From the NCBI RefSeq assembly GCF_014083985.1, contig NZ_CP046907.1, positions 814,501-878,500 on the forward strand: DNA of 64,000 bases, written 5' to 3'. Numbering within the stretch: the stretch's first letter is position 1; each line of letters opens with the position of its first letter. The notes under the pieces are model-generated. The model was not told the origin of the DNA. It made no database searches and worked only from the letters and a program-made list of their open reading frames with translations. Position numbers and translations under genes: made by a program. Shown piece after piece: positions 23,867 through 30,306 of the stretch. Source of the DNA: Streptomyces sp. SCUT-3 (GTDB taxonomy: Bacteria; Actinomycetota; Actinomycetes; Streptomycetales; Streptomycetaceae).

Positions 23867-24694
23867 GTGACCCAGCAGACGCCCGAGACCGCCCCGAGCG
23901 GGACCTTGACGACCGAGACCCTGCTGACCGGAGTGCGCAACTTCCGTGACGTGGGCGGCCTCCCGGCCGCCGACGGGCGCAGGGTCCGGCACGGACGGCT
24001 CTACCGCAGCGGCCACCTGGCCCACGCGACGGATGAGGACGCGGCGTTCCTGGCCTCGCTGAACCTGCACACCGTCTTCGACTTCCGCAACGCCGCCGAC
24101 ATCCGGCTCGAGGGGCCGGACGTCCTCCCCGAGGGCGTGGGCTACGTCAACATGCCGCTGTCCGACCCGGCGCAGGGGGCGGAGTTCTGGCGCGTCGTGC
24201 GCAACGGGGACATCGGGGCGCTGCGCGAGCAGCTCGCCGACGGCAGGGCGGTGCGGCGGATGGTCACCTCCTACCGCCACACGATCCTGCACCGCACCGC
24301 CGAGCACAGCAGGCTGCTGCACGCCCTGGCCGAGAACACCCTGCCCGCGCTGCTGCACTGCGCGGCGGGCAAGGACCGGGCGGGCCTGTCGGTGGCGGTC
24401 ACCCTGATGGCGGTCGGCGTGGACCGCGAGGCGGTGGAGCACGACTACCTCGAGAGCAACGCCGTGCACCGCCGCTACGCGGTGCGGCGCGACGACGACG
24501 CCGAGCCGGCCACCACCCCGGAGGTCATGGAGCTGCTCAGCCCCCTGTTCGAGGCCCGCTCCGAGTACCTGGCCGAGGCGTTCCGCACCATCGACGAGAC
24601 CTGGGGGACGGTGGACCGCTACCTCGGAGAGGGCCTCGGGGTCGCCCCCGCCACCCGGGAGCTGCTGCGCGAGCGGCTGCTCACCGAGGACTGA
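23867..24694 (+). CDS. tyrosine-protein phosphatase
   Basis: The start GTG 23867 follows AAGGAG at 23856-23861. The intact protein of 275 residues opens with LLTGVRNFRDVGGLPAADG, the typical entry of the bacterial tyrosine/serine phosphatase family (PF13350 type). It has the phosphate-binding loop LLHCAAGKDRAGLSVAVTLM (Cys-x5-Arg) near residue 165. LYRSGHLAHATDEDA and HTVFDFRNAADIRLEG complete the fold. It removes phosphate from tyrosine residues or possibly from phosphoinositides. It is monocistronic, ending at the hairpin 24719-24746. Confidence 0.88.
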   Translation: MTQQTPETAPSGTLTTETLLTGVRNFRDVGGLPAADGRRVRHGRLYRSGHLAHATDEDAAFLASLNLHTVFDFRNAADIRLEGPDVLPEGVGYVNMPLSDPAQGAEFWRVVRNGDIGALREQLADGRAVRRMVTSYRHTILHRTAEHSRLLHALAENTLPALLHCAAGKDRAGLSVAVTLMAVGVDREAVEHDYLESNAVHRRYAVRRDDDAEPATTPEVMELLSPLFEARSEYLAEAFRTIDETWGTVDRYLGEGLGVAPATRELLRERLLTED

Positions 24695-24718
24695 CGGCCG
24701 CCCCGGGGGAACCGGCGC

Positions 24719-24746
24719 GGGGCCCGTCCGGCGGCGGACGGGCCCC
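24719..24746. terminator. hairpin terminator
   Basis: A perfect 12-base stem GGGGCCCGTCCG/CGGACGGGCCCC closes over GCGG, between the convergent phosphatase (ends 24694) and DUF6126 gene (ends 24755). It can terminate both. Confidence 0.8.
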
Positions 24747-24754
24747 GGCCAGGG

Positions 24755-24985
24755 CTACTGGGCGCCGAGCAGGTAGAAGATCGCGAAGAAGAAGAACACG
24801 ATGAAGTGCACGGCCACCAGGTAGATGAAGACCCGCACGGTCATGCCCATGGGGGCCTTGTACTGCTCGTCCGACGCCGGGACCGGGCGGCCGGGCCGGG
24901 CGTCGGGGGCGGGGCGGGGGGCGGGCTGCCCGTCTGCGGGTTGCTGGTCTGCGGGGCGTTCGGCGCGGGCCGGTTCGACGGACAC
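24755..24985 (-). CDS. DUF6126 family small membrane protein
   Basis: The 76-residue protein starts at GTG 24985 behind GGAGGG. The first half is Pro/Ala-rich and charged (PADQQPADGQPAPRPAP); the second half MTVRVFIYLVAVHFIVFF with FAIFYLLGAQ is a single membrane helix reaching the C-terminus. This is the usual form of DUF6126, found downstream of XRE-cupin regulators in Streptomyces. Here it follows that regulator by 120 bases in the same direction. It is probably co-transcribed; function unknown. Confidence 0.8.
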   Translation of the reverse strand: MSVEPARAERPADQQPADGQPAPRPAPDARPGRPVPASDEQYKAPMGMTVRVFIYLVAVHFIVFFFFAIFYLLGAQ

Positions 24986-25105
24986 GGTGAGGGTTCCCTC
25001 CGGGTGGGCCGGCCTGGGCCGGGGTGCGGGCGGCAGGACCGTCCGGGCCGCCCCGGCCGGCGGGTGCGGGCGGGGCGGCGGACGCGGTCGGTGCGGGCGG
25101 GGTGG

Positions 25106-25729
25106 TCAGTGCGGGCGGCGGGGCGGGGTGCCGGCGCCCAGGCACAGCTCCGCCGTCCCGCTCTGCAGCAGGGTGTGGACGAACATGAAGTCGACGCCGT
25201 CGTGCGAGGCGGCGGTGAGGCGGTGCGGGGTCAGCGAGTCGTAGTGGGCCGCGTCCCCCGGTGCGAGTTCGTGGACCGCCTCGCCCAGCACCAGCCGCAG
25301 CCTGCCGCGGGTGACGCACAGCCACTCCTCGCCCGGGTGCACGCGCACGATGTCGCGCTGCGGGCCGGACGGGACGTGGACCCGCAGGGCCTGCATGGCG
25401 CGGCCGGGCCCGCCCGCGCGCCAGTAGGTCCAGCCGCCCGCGTCGGCGGCCTCCATCCGGTCGGCGCGGAGGACCGGTTCGGCCTCGGGGGCGGTCTCCC
25501 CCAGCAGGTCCGAGACGGTGGTGCCGTAGACCCGGGCGAGGGAGAGCAGGACGGGCAGGGAGGGCTGGCGCTGCCCGGTCTCCAGCCTGGACAGGTGGGC
25601 GGGCGAGAGGCCCACCCGCCGGGCGGCCGCTTCCAGGGTGACGCCGCCGCGCCGCCGCAGTTCGCGCAGCCGGGGCGCGACGGCGGGCAGCGGGTCGTGG
25701 GTCCCGGCGTCCTCCATGTGTGAGGTCAT
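25106..25729 (-). CDS. XRE family regulator with C-terminal cupin
   Basis: The 207-residue protein starts at ATG 25729 (an internal ATG at 25717 is an alternative). The helix-turn-helix occupies about residues 18-75: RLRELRRRGGVTLEAAARRV, then GLSPAHLSRLETGQRQPSLP and LLSLARVYGTTVSDLLG. The cupin domain covers about residues 110-195: RDIVRVHPGEEWLCVTRGRL and LAPGDAAHYDSLTPHRLTA. Such proteins bind DNA as dimers and sense a small ligand in the cupin. The doubled inverted repeat just upstream is the likely site for autoregulation. DUF6126 follows downstream. Confidence 0.88.
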   Translation of the reverse strand: MTSHMEDAGTHDPLPAVAPRLRELRRRGGVTLEAAARRVGLSPAHLSRLETGQRQPSLPVLLSLARVYGTTVSDLLGETAPEAEPVLRADRMEAADAGGWTYWRAGGPGRAMQALRVHVPSGPQRDIVRVHPGEEWLCVTRGRLRLVLGEAVHELAPGDAAHYDSLTPHRLTAASHDGVDFMFVHTLLQSGTAELCLGAGTPPRRPH

Positions 25730-25746
25730 GCCTCCGGTATAGAGAT

Positions 25747-25787
25747 TTTTTGCCCGAGAGGCAAGGTTCTTGCCTCTCGGGCAAAAA
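25747..25787. promoter_or_regulatory. doubled TTGCC-N5-GGCAA operator
   Basis: The region is a perfect 19-base inverted repeat (25747-25765 and 25769-25787) around GTT. It is built of two TTGCC-N5-GGCAA sites, at 25750-25764 and 25770-25784, spaced exactly 20 bases. It ends 18 bases before the XRE start. There is no T-tract on the 3' side for either direction, so an operator fits better than a terminator. Confidence 0.7.
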
Positions 25788-25858
25788 CAGGAGGGACGCC
25801 CGGGCCCCGTCCGGGACCCGGGCCCCTGGGCCCCCGGTCCCCGGACGGGCGCCGTTCC

Positions 25859-26928
25859 CTACTTCTCCCGGACGACCACGAAGTCGGCCAGGGCCACCAG
25901 GTTGCGGCGCACCTGCTCGGGCATGTCGACCCGGTGCAGGGCCTCGATGGCCGTGGCGTGCTGGCGGCGGGCCTCCTCGGAGGTCCACTCCCGTCCGCCG
26001 GCCTTCTCGATCAGCGCGGCGCGGTGGGCGAACTCGGCCTCGTCCAGGTCGCCGTTCTCCGTCTCCTCGGCGTCGGCGGCCAGCAGCCGCGCCAGCTCCT
26101 CCGACGCCTCGCCGCCGGCTGCCAGCGCGGCGACGACGGGCAGGGACTTCTTGCGCTGCCGCAGGTCGGACCAGGTCTGCTTGCCGGTGGTGGCCGGCTC
26201 CCCCAGATGCCCAGCAGGTCGTCGACCGCCTGGAACGCCAGCCCCAGGTGGTGCCCGTAGTCCTCCAGGGCGTCGGCGACGGTGTCGTCGGCGCCGCCGA
26301 GGACCGCCCCGACCGAGACCGCGCAGGCCAGCAGCGCGCCGGTCTTGTTGCCCTCCATCTCCAGGCACTCCTCGACCGTGACCCGGTCGCGGTGCTCGTA
26401 GGAGATGTCCTGGGCCTGCCCGTCGATGAGCTTGCGGGCGGCGACGGTCAGGCGGCGCAGCGCGCGGGCTCCCTCGACGGTCCCCAGCTCCAGCAGCACC
26501 TCGTTGGCCAGGGCGAACAGGGCGTCGCCGACCAGGATGGCCTGGGCCGGGCCGTGCACCTTCCACACCGTGTCGCGGTGGCGGCGCTGCTCGTCGCCGT
26601 CCATCAGGTCGTCGTGCAGCAGGGAGAAGTTGTGCACCAGCTCCACGGCGACGGCGCCGGGGACGCCGACCTCGGGGGCGGCCCCGGCCGCCTCGGCGGA
26701 CAGCAGGGCGAGCGCCGGGCGCACCGCCTTGCCGCCGTCGCCGTGCGCGGGGCGCCCGTCTGCGTCGATCCAGCCGAAGTGGTAGGCCGCCACCGCGTCC
26801 ATGGGGGCCGCCAGCCGGGCCACGGCCTGCTTGAGCAGGGGCGTGGACAGGGTGCGTCCGCGTTCGAGGAGGGAAGCGACGCTTCTGTCCTCGAGGACCT
26901 CGGTCGCCTCGTCGTTGGCCGGACTCAC
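25859..26928 (-). CDS. polyprenyl (farnesyl-type) diphosphate synthase, frame break near 26205
   Basis: The start GTG 26928 overlaps the hpnE stop (GTGA). The fold of trans-prenyltransferases is clear: GGKAVRPALALLSAEAAG, the first Asp-rich motif LLHDDLMDGDEQRRHRD, MEGNKTGALLACAVS, and the second motif FQAVDDLLGIWG. The frame changes right after this motif, and the rest (TTGKQTWSDLRQRKKSLPVV to FVVVREK) ends with TAG at 25859-25861. It adds isopentenyl units to make the allylic diphosphate that feeds squalene formation. Length about 356 residues is normal. This gene sits with hpnCDE in Streptomyces hopanoid clusters. Confidence 0.85.
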
Positions 26929-28391
26929 GTTCTCTCCTCCTGCTGTGGGCACTGTGGTCGGGTCCGCGGGACGGCGTGCGCCTCCGCGGGCACCGGGCGG
27001 CCGGCGTCGGCCAGGGCGGCGCGGGCCGCCGCTGTTCCGCTGCGCACCGCCCCCTCCATGGTCGCGGGCCATCCGGTGTCGGTCCACGCGCCGGCCAGGT
27101 ACAGGCCGGGCACGCGGGTACGGGCGGACGGGCGCAGCCGTCCCACGCCCGGCGCGGGGGCGAACGTGGCCGTCCGCTCCCGGGTGACGAAGAAGTCCCG
27201 CACGCCGGCGCTCCGGGCGGCGGGAAGGATGCGCTCCAGCTCGGGCAGGAACCGCTTCCGCAGCGCGGCGACGGGCAGGTCGACCAGGTCGTGGGCGGCG
27301 GACTGCGAGAGCACCAGGTACTGTCCCCCGCCGGCCAGGCCGGAGGAGGCGGTGCGGTCGAAGACCCACTGGACCGGGCTGCCCAGCACGGCGAGGAAGG
27401 GACTGCGCATCACCCGGCGACCGTAGACCACGTGCAGGTCCACGATGGGCGAAACACCGATCCCGGAGAGCCGCGCGGGGTCGTCGAGGGCGCCGGGCGG
27501 CAGCAGGGCGCGGGCCTGTTCCTGCGCCACGGCGAGCACCGCCGCGGTGCACGGCAGCCGGGCGCCGTCGGCCAGGACGACCTGCCGGGCGCCGTCCGGC
27601 CCCGGCTCGACCCCGGTCGCCCGGGTCCCGGTCAGCACCCGCACCCCCGCCCGCCGCAGGGCGGCGGCGGCCCGCTCGTCGTGCAGGTCGCCCAGCGGGG
27701 CGGTGGCCCAGCCGATGTCGGCGGCGCCGGGGTCGGACAGCAGACCGGTGCGGAAGACCATCGCGGCCAGGCCGAGCGAGACGTCCCGGGCGCGGGCGTT
27801 GAGCGTGGCCACGCCCACCAGGTCCCACAGCGCCTCGACCGCGCGCGGCGACTGCCCCTGCTCGCGCAGCCAGCTCGCGAAGTCCCGCCCGTCCAGTGCG
27901 GGGTCGGCCGGGTCCAGGCCCTTGAGGGCCCAGGCGGCGCGGGCGGCCCGCAGCCGCTCGACCGGCGACAGGTGGGGGTAGGAGGCGAGGCTGCCGGCCA
28001 GGTGCAGGGGCACCGGGAGGGCGGCGCGCCGCAGCCGCGCCGCTCGCGGCCCGCCGGGGGCCGCGACGTCCAGCACGGGCACGTCCAGGCGGTCCTGGAG
28101 GGTCACCAGGCCGGTGGCGCCGATGCGGTCCAGGAAGCCCAGGTAGGCGGTGCAGCAGCGCAGGAAGACGTGCTGGCCGTTGTCGACGGCCAGGTCGCCG
28201 CGGCGGAAGGAGAAGGCGAGGCCGCCCAGGCGGGGCCTGCCCTCGACCAGGGTCACCGCGAGTCCGGCGTCGGCGAGCTCCAGGGCGGCGGTGACGCCGG
28301 CCAGGCCGCCGCCGACCACCACCGCCGTGCGGTCCGCGGCGGCGGGGCGGGACGGGACGCCGCCGCCCGGGCGGGGCACGGGGGCGCTCAT
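26925..28391 (-). CDS. hpnE: hydroxysqualene dehydroxylase HpnE
   Basis: The intact FAD-dependent enzyme has 488 residues and starts at ATG 28391, overlapping the hpnD stop as ATGA. The FAD motif AVVVGGGLAGVTAALELAD is near residue 25, followed by GRPRLGGLAFSFRRGDLAV and NGQHVFLRCCTAYLGFLD. The C-terminal flavin-binding block is GLYLAGAWTDTGWPATMEGA. HpnE reduces hydroxysqualene to squalene, the third step of the HpnCDE route. Ala/Pro-rich ends flank the fold. Confidence 0.9.
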   Translation of the reverse strand: MSAPVPRPGGGVPSRPAAADRTAVVVGGGLAGVTAALELADAGLAVTLVEGRPRLGGLAFSFRRGDLAVDNGQHVFLRCCTAYLGFLDRIGATGLVTLQDRLDVPVLDVAAPGGPRAARLRRAALPVPLHLAGSLASYPHLSPVERLRAARAAWALKGLDPADPALDGRDFASWLREQGQSPRAVEALWDLVGVATLNARARDVSLGLAAMVFRTGLLSDPGAADIGWATAPLGDLHDERAAAALRRAGVRVLTGTRATGVEPGPDGARQVVLADGARLPCTAAVLAVAQEQARALLPPGALDDPARLSGIGVSPIVDLHVVYGRRVMRSPFLAVLGSPVQWVFDRTASSGLAGGGQYLVLSQSAAHDLVDLPVAALRKRFLPELERILPAARSAGVRDFFVTRERTATFAPAPGVGRLRPSARTRVPGLYLAGAWTDTGWPATMEGAVRSGTAAARAALADAGRPVPAEAHAVPRTRPQCPQQEERT

Positions 28392-29332
28392 GCGCCTCCC
28401 CCGGCGGCCCCGGCGACCCGGCGGGCGTGCAGGCCGGTCAGGCCGCGCACGGCCACCAGCGCCTTCTCCCCCCCGGGGAGGGAGACGCGGCCGTGCAGCA
28501 CCGCCTCGGGGTCGCGGGCGATGCGCACCAGCAGCCGGTGGTAGATGCCGGCCATCGCGGACACGCAGGCGCCGCTGCGCCGGTCCAGCATCGGCAGCAG
28601 CCGGAAGCCCTCCTCGAACAGCGCGTGGGCGCGCCGGGCCTGGAAGCGGACCAGCCCGGCGAAGTCGGCGCCCGGGGCGGGCAGCCCGCGGGCGAAGCCT
28701 TCGGCGCAGCCGAACCGGTCCAGTTCCTCGGACGGCAGGTAGGTGCGGCCGTTGGCGGCGTCCTCGCGCACGTCGCGCAGGATGTTGGTGAGCTGCAGGG
28801 CGAGGCCCAGGGTGTCGGCGTAGTGGTCGGCACGGTCCGCGTCGCGGGCGCCGGGCACGGTGCCGAAGACGCCGAGGGAGAGCCGGCCGATCGCCCCGGC
28901 CACGCAGCGGCAGTACTGCCGCAGCTCCTCCCAGGTGCGGTAGGTGGCGCCGCGCACGTCCATCAGCACGCCGTCGATGAGCTCGTCGAGGGCGCCCAGC
29001 GGCAGCGGGAAGGCGCCGGCCGCGTGGGCCAGGGCCACCGCGACCGGGTCGGTGTCGTCCTCGGCGACGGCCCCGGTGCGCACCCGCTCCAGCAGGTCGC
29101 GGCACCCCTGCAGCCGGGAGGCCTTCTCCTGCGCCTCCAGCGTCCCGTCGCCGATGTCGTCGACCCGACGGGAGAAGGCGTACAGCGCGGACATCGCCCG
29201 CCGCCGGGCGGTGGGCAGCAGCCGGATGCCGTAGGCGAAGTTGCGGGCCTGGCCGCCGGTGACCGCCTCGCAGTACCGGTAGGCCGCGAGGACCGGCAAG
29301 GAGACCGGCACCCCGGTCGCTGGAGCCTGCAT
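28388..29332 (-). CDS. hpnD: presqualene diphosphate synthase HpnD
   Basis: The 314-residue protein starts at ATG 29332, 63 bases after hpnC. Squalene/phytoene synthase motifs are visible: ARNFAYGIRLLPTARR, the first Asp-rich motif SRRVDDIGDGTLEAQEKA, and the second LTNILRDVREDAANGRTYLP with the PSEELDRFG follow-up. HpnD condenses two farnesyl diphosphates to presqualene diphosphate. The stop overlaps hpnE. No frame break. Confidence 0.9.
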   Translation of the reverse strand: MQAPATGVPVSLPVLAAYRYCEAVTGGQARNFAYGIRLLPTARRRAMSALYAFSRRVDDIGDGTLEAQEKASRLQGCRDLLERVRTGAVAEDDTDPVAVALAHAAGAFPLPLGALDELIDGVLMDVRGATYRTWEELRQYCRCVAGAIGRLSLGVFGTVPGARDADRADHYADTLGLALQLTNILRDVREDAANGRTYLPSEELDRFGCAEGFARGLPAPGADFAGLVRFQARRAHALFEEGFRLLPMLDRRSGACVSAMAGIYHRLLVRIARDPEAVLHGRVSLPGGEKALVAVRGLTGLHARRVAGAAGGGA

Positions 29333-29394
29333 CGGTGCGGCTCACCTCACTCTTTCGTGTCTGTGCGTCCGGCCCCGGTGCGCGGCCGGGGGTC

Positions 29395-30306
29395 TCAGCG
29401 TCGCGGTCCGCGCAGCGCGGCGGCCGCCTCCCGCACCAGGCGGGCCCTGGAGGCCCTGGGCGGCCCGGGCAGGGGGTCGTGGTCGGCGTCCTCCAGTGCG
29501 GCGAGCGCCGCGCGCCCCCCGGCGACGAAGCCGGCGAGCAGCAGCCGCAGGCGGCCGCGCACGCTGCCGACCAGGGGTGCGCCCGCGTCCAGCAGGGCAC
29601 GGGCGCGGTCGGCCTCGAACCGCACCAGGTCGCGCACGGCGCGGCTGCCGGTGGGGCGGGCCAGGTCCGCCTCGGTGACGCCGAAGCGCTCCATGTCCTC
29701 GGCCGGCAGGTAGATCCGGCCGCGGGCGAGGTCCTCGGCCACGTCCTGGAGGTGCTCGGCGATCTGCAGGGCCGTGCAGATCTCGTCGGAGCGGCGCAGG
29801 CGTTCGGGGCTGGTGGTGCCGGTGATCGCCAGGACCAGCCGGCCGACCGGGTTGGCCGACAGGTCGCAGTAGGCGAGCAGGTCGTCCCAGGTGGCGTACC
29901 GGGTGGTGCGCTGGTCCTGCCGGTTCGCCTCGATCAGGGCGAGGAACGGCCCCGGGTCGAGGCGGTGGCGGAGCACGGTGGGCCGCAGGGCCCGCACCAG
30001 CGGGTGGCGGGGGCCACCGTCGGTACCGCCCGCGCCGTCGAAGGCACGGAGCAGGTCGCGCTCGATGGCGTCGAGGAGGGCGAGGCGGTCGTCCGCGGCG
30101 TCCCCGGGCACGCTCAGGAGGGCGGCGTCGCCGCGGCCGGGCGGCAGGTCGCCGTCGCCGGCGTCGTCGACGAGGCGGGCGCAGCCGTAGACGGCCATCA
30201 GGTCGTTGCGCCAGGCGGCCGGCAGGAAGAAGGGGGCCACGGGGAAGTTCTCCCGGGCGGCCTTGTCGAGCACGGCGCGCGAGGACGCGTCCGTCCGCGC
30301 GGTCAC
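29395..30306 (-). CDS. hpnC: hydroxysqualene synthase HpnC
   Basis: The frame from GTG 30306 codes for 303 residues: NFPVAPFFLPAAWRNDLMAV, the Asp-rich YGCARLVDDAGDGDLPP, and the second motif QIAEHLQDVAEDLARGRIYL. HpnC converts presqualene diphosphate to hydroxysqualene. The GTG overlaps the TGA of a short upstream frame (30303-30380) that begins ATGTCCACCGCC; either this is a coupled leader or one base is missing and the true start is ATG 30380. hpnC is the first gene of the coupled hpnC-D-E-synthase unit. Confidence 0.88.
   Translation of the reverse strand: MTARTDASSRAVLDKAARENFPVAPFFLPAAWRNDLMAVYGCARLVDDAGDGDLPPGRGDAALLSVPGDAADDRLALLDAIERDLLRAFDGAGGTDGGPRHPLVRALRPTVLRHRLDPGPFLALIEANRQDQRTTRYATWDDLLAYCDLSANPVGRLVLAITGTTSPERLRRSDEICTALQIAEHLQDVAEDLARGRIYLPAEDMERFGVTEADLARPTGSRAVRDLVRFEADRARALLDAGAPLVGSVRGRLRLLLAGFVAGGRAALAALEDADHDPLPGPPRASRARLVREAAAALRGPRR

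Follow-up and report, generated by a model that had tools for sequence, protein, structure and literature searches.

A conserved, probably autoregulatory double operator upstream of an XRE-cupin/DUF6126 operon in Streptomyces and relatives

The palindromic pair and its regulator in Streptomyces sp. SCUT-3

Upstream of a gene for an XRE-cupin regulator in Streptomyces sp. SCUT-3, two copies of the palindrome TTGCC-N5-GGCAA lie close together, and the locus raises the question of whether they form an operator, which protein would bind it, and which genes it would control. In the stretch of DNA analyzed here (64,000 nucleotides; hereafter the window), the exact motif is found at 25750-25764 (TTGCCCGAGAGGCAA, forward strand) and 25770-25784 (TTGCCTCTCGGGCAA, forward strand), where a preliminary description had placed it, and these are the only exact matches in the 64 kb, against an expectation of 0.05; two matches were obtained in 0 of 100 shuffles. 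A repeat search recovered the 19-base inverted repeat that had also been claimed, with arms of 19 nt at 25747-25765 and 25769-25787 that are 100% complementary and separated by a 3-nt gap. The N5 center is not random, the fuller motif being TTGCCT-N3-AGGCAA, best seen in the distal copy. Read along the gene strand, the distal site (25784-25770) is followed after 5 bp by the proximal site (25764-25750), TATACC (25741-25736), and the ATG at 25729. The two copies had been described as lying exactly two helical turns apart, which is nearly right, since 20 bp corresponds to 1.9 turns at the helical repeat of 10.5 bp per turn; the further suggestion that two dimers would occupy the same face of the DNA is plausible, in that a fixed spacing of 20 or 21 bp is compatible with nearly one face. 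The features of the unit are as follows.

25770 to 25784, minus strand: distal operator, an exact motif reading TTGCCCGAGAGGCAA on the gene strand, spanning roughly -55 to -41 for a transcript that begins at the ATG.
25750 to 25764, minus strand: proximal operator, an exact motif reading TTGCCTCTCGGGCAA on the gene strand, at about -35 to -21 if transcription starts at the ATG.
25747 to 25787, no strand: 19-base perfect inverted repeat of the two mirror-image operators, from the repeat search.
25759 to 25764, minus strand: probable -35 hexamer (TTGCCT) contained in the proximal operator, whose TTGCC half is intact in 106 of 109 loci.
25736 to 25741, minus strand: probable -10 hexamer TATACC, assigned from sequence, 17 bp from the -35 hexamer.
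25106 to 25729, minus strand: XRE-cupin regulator of 207 aa, probably leaderless (PF13560, PF01381, PF07883).
24755 to 24985, minus strand: second operon gene, encoding a small DUF6126 protein whose C-terminal stretch is hydrophobic (PF19621, 51.3 bits, cut-off 25).

The regulator has an N-terminal XRE/helix-turn-helix (HTH) domain (PF13560/HTH_31 and PF01381/HTH_3 within residues 18-75), a C-terminal cupin domain (PF07883/Cupin_2 at 117-184), all scoring over their cut-offs, and palindromic sites at its own gene, which are the marks of an XRE-cupin regulator. Among 110 aligned regulator proteins, many HTH residues are conserved at 100%, as are H131, E134, E135, H169, H185, and C196 of the cupin domain. 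The H-x3-E...H spacing resembles that of metal-binding cupins, HppE using a metal triad of this type, and H131, E135, and H169 perhaps form a metal site. Structural matches spanning HTH and cupin included HppE entries, some with Fe(II), and the regulator 1y9q, obtained with a predicted model that is weak (mean pLDDT 65.3, pTM 0.45) and too poor for detail. An identity as PuuR was rejected: the XRE-cupin layout is common to both proteins, and the regulator scores 33.4 bits with NF007408, far under the PuuR cut-off of 211. A plasmid search returned 11 records, two of them at ortholog level.

Conservation and genomic distribution of the pair

Ortholog loci were collected from SCUT-3 and 29 relatives (30 loci) and from named genomes (the best 80, nearly all Streptomyces or Actinacidiphila). 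Because L007 and L051 come from one contig and show no difference across 700 nt, these 110 loci comprise 109 distinct ones, including the window's own. The motif had been proposed to recur upstream of homologous genes, and it does: the pair is present in 109/109 distinct loci, refuting nonconservation, 104 having a spacing of 20 bp and 5 a spacing of 21 bp, in loci that share descent and so are not independent. Common descent may be a partial cause of the fixed spacing. The distal copy has no mismatch in 97 loci, one in 11, and two in 1, and the proximal copy has none in 38, one in 40, two in 25, and three to five in 6, its TTGCC half being intact in 106/109 and its GGCAA half in 40/109. As read from the alignments, the distal site hardly varies and the proximal site is the weaker of the two. 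When 300 bp upstream were scanned in the 110 loci, the best site had no mismatches in 99 and one in 10; in L072 the pair lies outside the scan, 395 bp upstream of the homologous stretch, and the protein carries a long N-terminal extension, as it also does in L270 (G063). Elsewhere in 109 of the loci (L072 not counted), 0 of 887,442 positions came within four mismatches of the 20. Bases just 5′ of the pair carry only 0.08-0.25 bits at most positions, and conservation of the pair therefore reflects constraint. The conserved double operator is real, ordinary in kind and unusually clean, and the autoregulation of the XRE/DUF6126 unit that the preliminary description had suggested is strongly implied by the conservation of the motif at ortholog loci.

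The 6.08-Mb SCUT-3 genome contains five exact single motifs, namely the window pair, a second pair, and a lone site (C1:3547807) that by eye lies in repetitive coding sequence and was set aside; the reversed motif, used as a control, gave two matches. A 25-base pattern comprising the full distal site and the proximal half was detected in 122/150 family genomes (one with the reversed control), and the pair with at most three mismatches over 20 positions was detected in 50/50 and 46/50 genomes. The regulator was located in 80 of those 100 genomes with an ortholog threshold of E ≤ 1e-40, and an ortholog is present in 77/80 sampled family genomes, in 76 of which the pair lies 12-361 bp upstream of the homologous stretch; the 77th (G113) has both sites at a 21-bp spacing. 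These genome sets partly overlap the named loci (G020 holds the contig of L051) and so extend the locus survey rather than replicate it. Across the 80 genomes there are 85 pairs, 76 at the ortholog and 9 elsewhere. Seven of the nine have three mismatches, and the reversed control gives 21 matches in the same genomes; of the remaining two, one is in G097, where the XRE gene at the locus scored below the threshold, and the other precedes DUF6126 in G099. A pair with at most two mismatches is thus found away from the XRE locus in 1/80 genomes. Three genomes have a pair within three mismatches and no ortholog at the threshold (G090, G097, and G126), and the three-mismatch matches in G090 and G126 look like chance. 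With 76/85 pairs at the ortholog, the motif points to local control and a regulon of apparently one operon.

Presence of the pair was also compared with presence of the ortholog in 28 family genomes: the pair (at most three mismatches) is found in 20/23 with the ortholog versus 0/5 without (Fisher P 0.0006, only indicative because the genomes are related). One of the 20 (G002) has a three-mismatch match away from the gene, leaving 19 at the gene. Three genomes (G001, G002, and G018) have the distal site and a TTGCC half-site instead of the full pair, and G024 has the pair at a 21-bp spacing. Both the pair and DUF6126 are absent from 5/5 family genomes lacking the ortholog. For a regulator kept in 77/80 sampled family genomes, the analysis provides a candidate 35-bp operator, a likely promoter, and an apparent one-operon regulon.

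The centers of the two sites are exact reverse complements of each other in 21/109 loci (20/109 distinct), compared with a mean of 4.7 and a maximum of 13 in 2000 random re-pairings, and are identical in direct orientation in 0 loci, compared with 4.0 in re-pairings; the re-pairing test ignores descent, and nine different center-sequence pairs are involved. We infer that mirror-image centers arise by hairpin-templated correction of a near-palindrome. The perfect 19-base repeat of the window is one such case, incidental and not a separate signal.

The probable promoter, DUF6126, and other genes behind the pair

Start codons and -10 spacers were counted in 109 of the 110 loci (L072 not counted). 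Distances were measured from the base that opens the proximal site, and start codons were sought at 30 nt and beyond: they lie at 35 nt in 71 loci, 36 nt in 33, and 37 nt in 4 (108/109 loci, the remaining one being unassigned); nearer in-frame ATG or GTG codons (<30 nt), present in 29/108 loci, were passed over because they lie inside the promoter. The start-codon distance in the window is 35 nt (ATG at 25729-25727). The best -10 spacer from the TTGCC hexamer is 17 bp in 86 loci, 18 bp in 22, and 16 bp in 1, with ties assigned to 17 bp, and the commonest -10 hexamer is TATACC (41/109). The -10 region matches three or four of the six consensus bases in 106/109 loci versus about 26 expected, and it is off consensus, TAnnnT being present in 7/109 versus 13.4 in shuffles. 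According to the excerpted text of a Streptomyces lividans study, the -10 precedes the transcription start by 6.3 nt on average, 17% of transcripts are leaderless, and 93.4% of leaderless promoters have a TAnnnT motif (PMC8079986). On these figures, the simplest reading is that transcription starts at the ATG; the promoter is probably leaderless, as the near-constant distance of the start codon also suggests, and TTGCC of the proximal site probably also serves as the -35 box. The off-consensus -10 is as compatible with activation as with repression, a weak promoter leaving room for activation. A sigma-70 scan of 24600-27000 returned no promoter, TTGCCT/TATACC falling short of the consensus rule of the scan.

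DUF6126 lies downstream of the regulator in 107/110 loci by lenient tblastn, 99 of them at E ≤ 1e-3; in L025 and L026 it is present by profile, and L055 ends at a contig edge. In the outgroup loci L032 and L035, a 40-residue hydrophobic protein of similar pattern directly follows the regulator and is missed by the profile in both. Among ortholog genomes, DUF6126 is encoded within 2.5 kb downstream in 74/77, and G061 and G121 have no DUF6126 by profile. PF19621 was detected in 27/37 family genomes versus 0/24 others, the match in G001 scoring only under the curated cut-off. Extra DUF6126 copies (L210-L227, from several genera) stand beside genes that by eye are ArsR-like or SulP/STAS-like. In G099, 5.6 Mb separate the regulator gene from the DUF6126 gene, and a pair precedes each of them: the single XRE ortholog (C1:982616-983200) has a two-mismatch pair at 983329, and the sole DUF6126 match (C1:6606164-6606271) has a one-mismatch pair at 6606377 (locus L267, C1:6606164-6606411), with no XRE gene in between. 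The first ATG is 35 nt from that pair and by eye opens a short frame overlapping the DUF6126 start. This split operon is a natural experiment linking the operator to DUF6126 itself: each of the separated genes has the element, and no other observation speaks as strongly for DUF6126 being a genuine target.

The second perfect pair of SCUT-3 (C1:5790956-5790990; L116 6957-6991) lies 270 bp before a paralog of COX1/ctaD (PF00115) and is followed by the same TATACC and then an ATG opening a 26-codon frame. Further COX1 copies are present in SCUT-3, one of them split over two frames. As a general target, ctaD was rejected: the pair is confined to one SCUT-3 copy among 30 fetched COX1 loci (of 49 places listed), the other 29 having at least six mismatches. 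Pairs with one and two mismatches precede a rhodanese gene (PF00581) in G007 and G019, respectively (L148 2051-2085 and L176 1099-1133); the pair-bearing copies are 81% identical, and each genome has a close copy without the pair. Rhodanese was likewise rejected as a general target, 28/30 fetched loci (of 56 places listed) being without the pair. A three-mismatch pair in G020 precedes a truncated XRE copy; a truncated second XRE copy behind a degenerate pair was noted at L175 1219-1614, and the next gene resembles OsmC by eye. An HPP-family site in G036 has four mismatches and was set aside. These scattered extra pairs are too few to define a common regulon.

Models of control and the neighboring genes

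We consider it probable that the two palindromes form a double operator through which the XRE-cupin autoregulates an XRE-cupin/DUF6126 operon that is itself probably leaderless, with a cupin ligand relieving repression. Each palindrome would receive one XRE-cupin dimer, the two dimers sitting on nearly one face of the helix; the distal site would be the stronger binding site, and a dimer on the proximal site would exclude RNA polymerase. The regulator would thereby keep both itself and DUF6126 at a limited level, and a ligand of its cupin domain, perhaps bound at a candidate metal site H131/E135/H169, would release it. In this model the dimers would bind directly and may do so cooperatively, and the XRE-cupin probably acts as a repressor rather than as an activator or in both ways. 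In the available part of a Pseudomonas aeruginosa study, most XRE-cupins repress locally, acting through palindromic sites on one or two neighboring targets, PauR being an outlier with many targets (PMC7901475). As far as that part goes, the SCUT-3 regulator is like ErfA, PsdR, and PauR in its HTH and cupin domains, its palindromes, and its few predicted targets at or beside its own gene, a likeness of layout; it is unlike them in that its promoter, probably leaderless, carries two sites in a stereotyped 20/21-bp arrangement, and in its partner gene, which encodes a small hydrophobic protein rather than forming a metabolic operon.

The geometry recalls the controller (C) proteins of restriction-modification (R-M) systems. 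C.Esp1396I is described in the source excerpt as acting at a 35-bp OL+OR element in which a high-affinity distal site recruits sigma and a low-affinity proximal site represses (PMC4041747), and the sites of C.Csp231I are given as 5 bp-N5-5 bp, 15 bp in all (PMC4321490, in part). Within those accounts, the SCUT-3 unit shares with C.Esp1396I its HTH dimers (putative here), two operators of 35 bp together, and probable autogenous control, and with C.Csp231I its 15-bp sites. As in C-protein promoters, the proximal site overlaps the -35 box and the distal site is the better one, a correspondence of geometry and conservation; the strong distal and weak proximal sites of C.Esp1396I are ranked by affinity, whereas ours are ranked by conservation only. 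Unlike these C proteins, the regulator has a cupin sensor domain and a different recognition sequence. An R-M controller would be an HTH-only protein, and no R-M gene was recognized by eye among the 25 largest neighbor clusters. Judged on sequence, the unit is an XRE-cupin regulator by membership and C-protein-promoter-like by geometry.

By analogy with these systems, the pair could be an activate-then-repress switch in which a dimer on the strong distal site aids RNA polymerase at a weak promoter and, once more regulator has built up, a second dimer on the weak proximal site blocks it, a reading that we hold to be rather unlikely. The same geometry as C.Esp1396I and C.Csp231I, a distal copy that is better conserved and ends just upstream of the -35, and a weak promoter with an off-consensus -10 all speak for it, but the Pseudomonas XRE-cupins described in the cited excerpt are repressors (PMC7901475), and conservation need not equal affinity. 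It counts against the repressor model that the distal site, which is not expected to block the -35 directly, is the better conserved. It is improbable, in our estimate, that the XRE-cupin is a metal/thiol sensor (H131/E135/H169 plus C196) working as a C-protein-like switch outside R-M, with DUF6126 output tuning membrane respiratory or sulfur chemistry; if true, this would explain why operators that have escaped the home operon precede a gene for cytochrome c oxidase subunit I, accessory rhodanese genes of two genera, and the orphan DUF6126.

The few pairs at other genes (ctaD in SCUT-3, accessory rhodaneses in G007 and G019) might instead suggest that another regulator binds the pair and that the XRE-cupin is merely its target; this is highly improbable, for the pair tracks the ortholog and is missing from all five family genomes that lack it, and its near confinement to the XRE locus at two mismatches or fewer is as for a local autoregulator. 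A two-gene operon that pairs an XRE protein with a small hydrophobic one also invites a toxin-antitoxin-like reading, with DUF6126 as a membrane toxin and the XRE-cupin as antitoxin and autorepressor. That reading has very little to recommend it given the separated genes of G099, the profile-negative genomes G121 and G061, DUF6126 paralogs elsewhere without this XRE, and a family-wide conservation that looks like core regulation. Finally, the arms in the window fold at -33.8 kcal/mol (z -9.5), as would an RNA hairpin acting as terminator or attenuator rather than as operator, a reading that is scarcely credible: the element lies upstream of the putative transcription start, there is no T-run after the stem on either strand, and both palindromes and their spacing persist even though only 20/109 distinct loci have mirror-image centers. 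An intrinsic terminator was rejected, the arms ending in their own paired T5/A5 with no T-run after the stem, and no RNA family was detected at gathering score in 25000-27000.

None of the papers searched mentions DUF6126 or the operator motif strings. In Streptomyces coelicolor, SCO6770/SCO6771 are probably this regulator/DUF6126 pair, judging by their position at the end of the hopanoid cluster. In partial source texts, that cluster is given as SCO6759-SCO6771 (PMC13033682), a 0.28-fold level is given for SCO6771, termed a small hydrophobic protein, when hbpS-senS-senR is mutated (PMC4991794), and SCO6770 is listed at 3.1-fold in a copper study (PMC6414726). In the window, squalene/hopanoid-type genes (26925-30306, minus strand; two SQS_PSY, an amine oxidoreductase, and a polyprenyl synthetase) adjoin the operon, and hopanoid/MEP markers lie beside it in 43/80 named loci. 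Control of hopanoid genes is unsupported, 37/80 named loci being without a marker within 5 kb on each side (some contigs being shorter). The polyprenyl synthetase just upstream (25859-27828, minus strand) is in two frames split near 26200 (ORFs 26011-27828 and 25859-26566), which is a frameshift or sequencing error. Just after its stop, GC-rich imperfect inverted repeats occupy 25793-25854, and a terminator scan, in place of the operator arms, picked out only a shorter terminator-like hairpin at 25793-25808 (minus strand), whose T-rich tail reaches into the T-run of the distal operator and which possibly insulates the XRE promoter.
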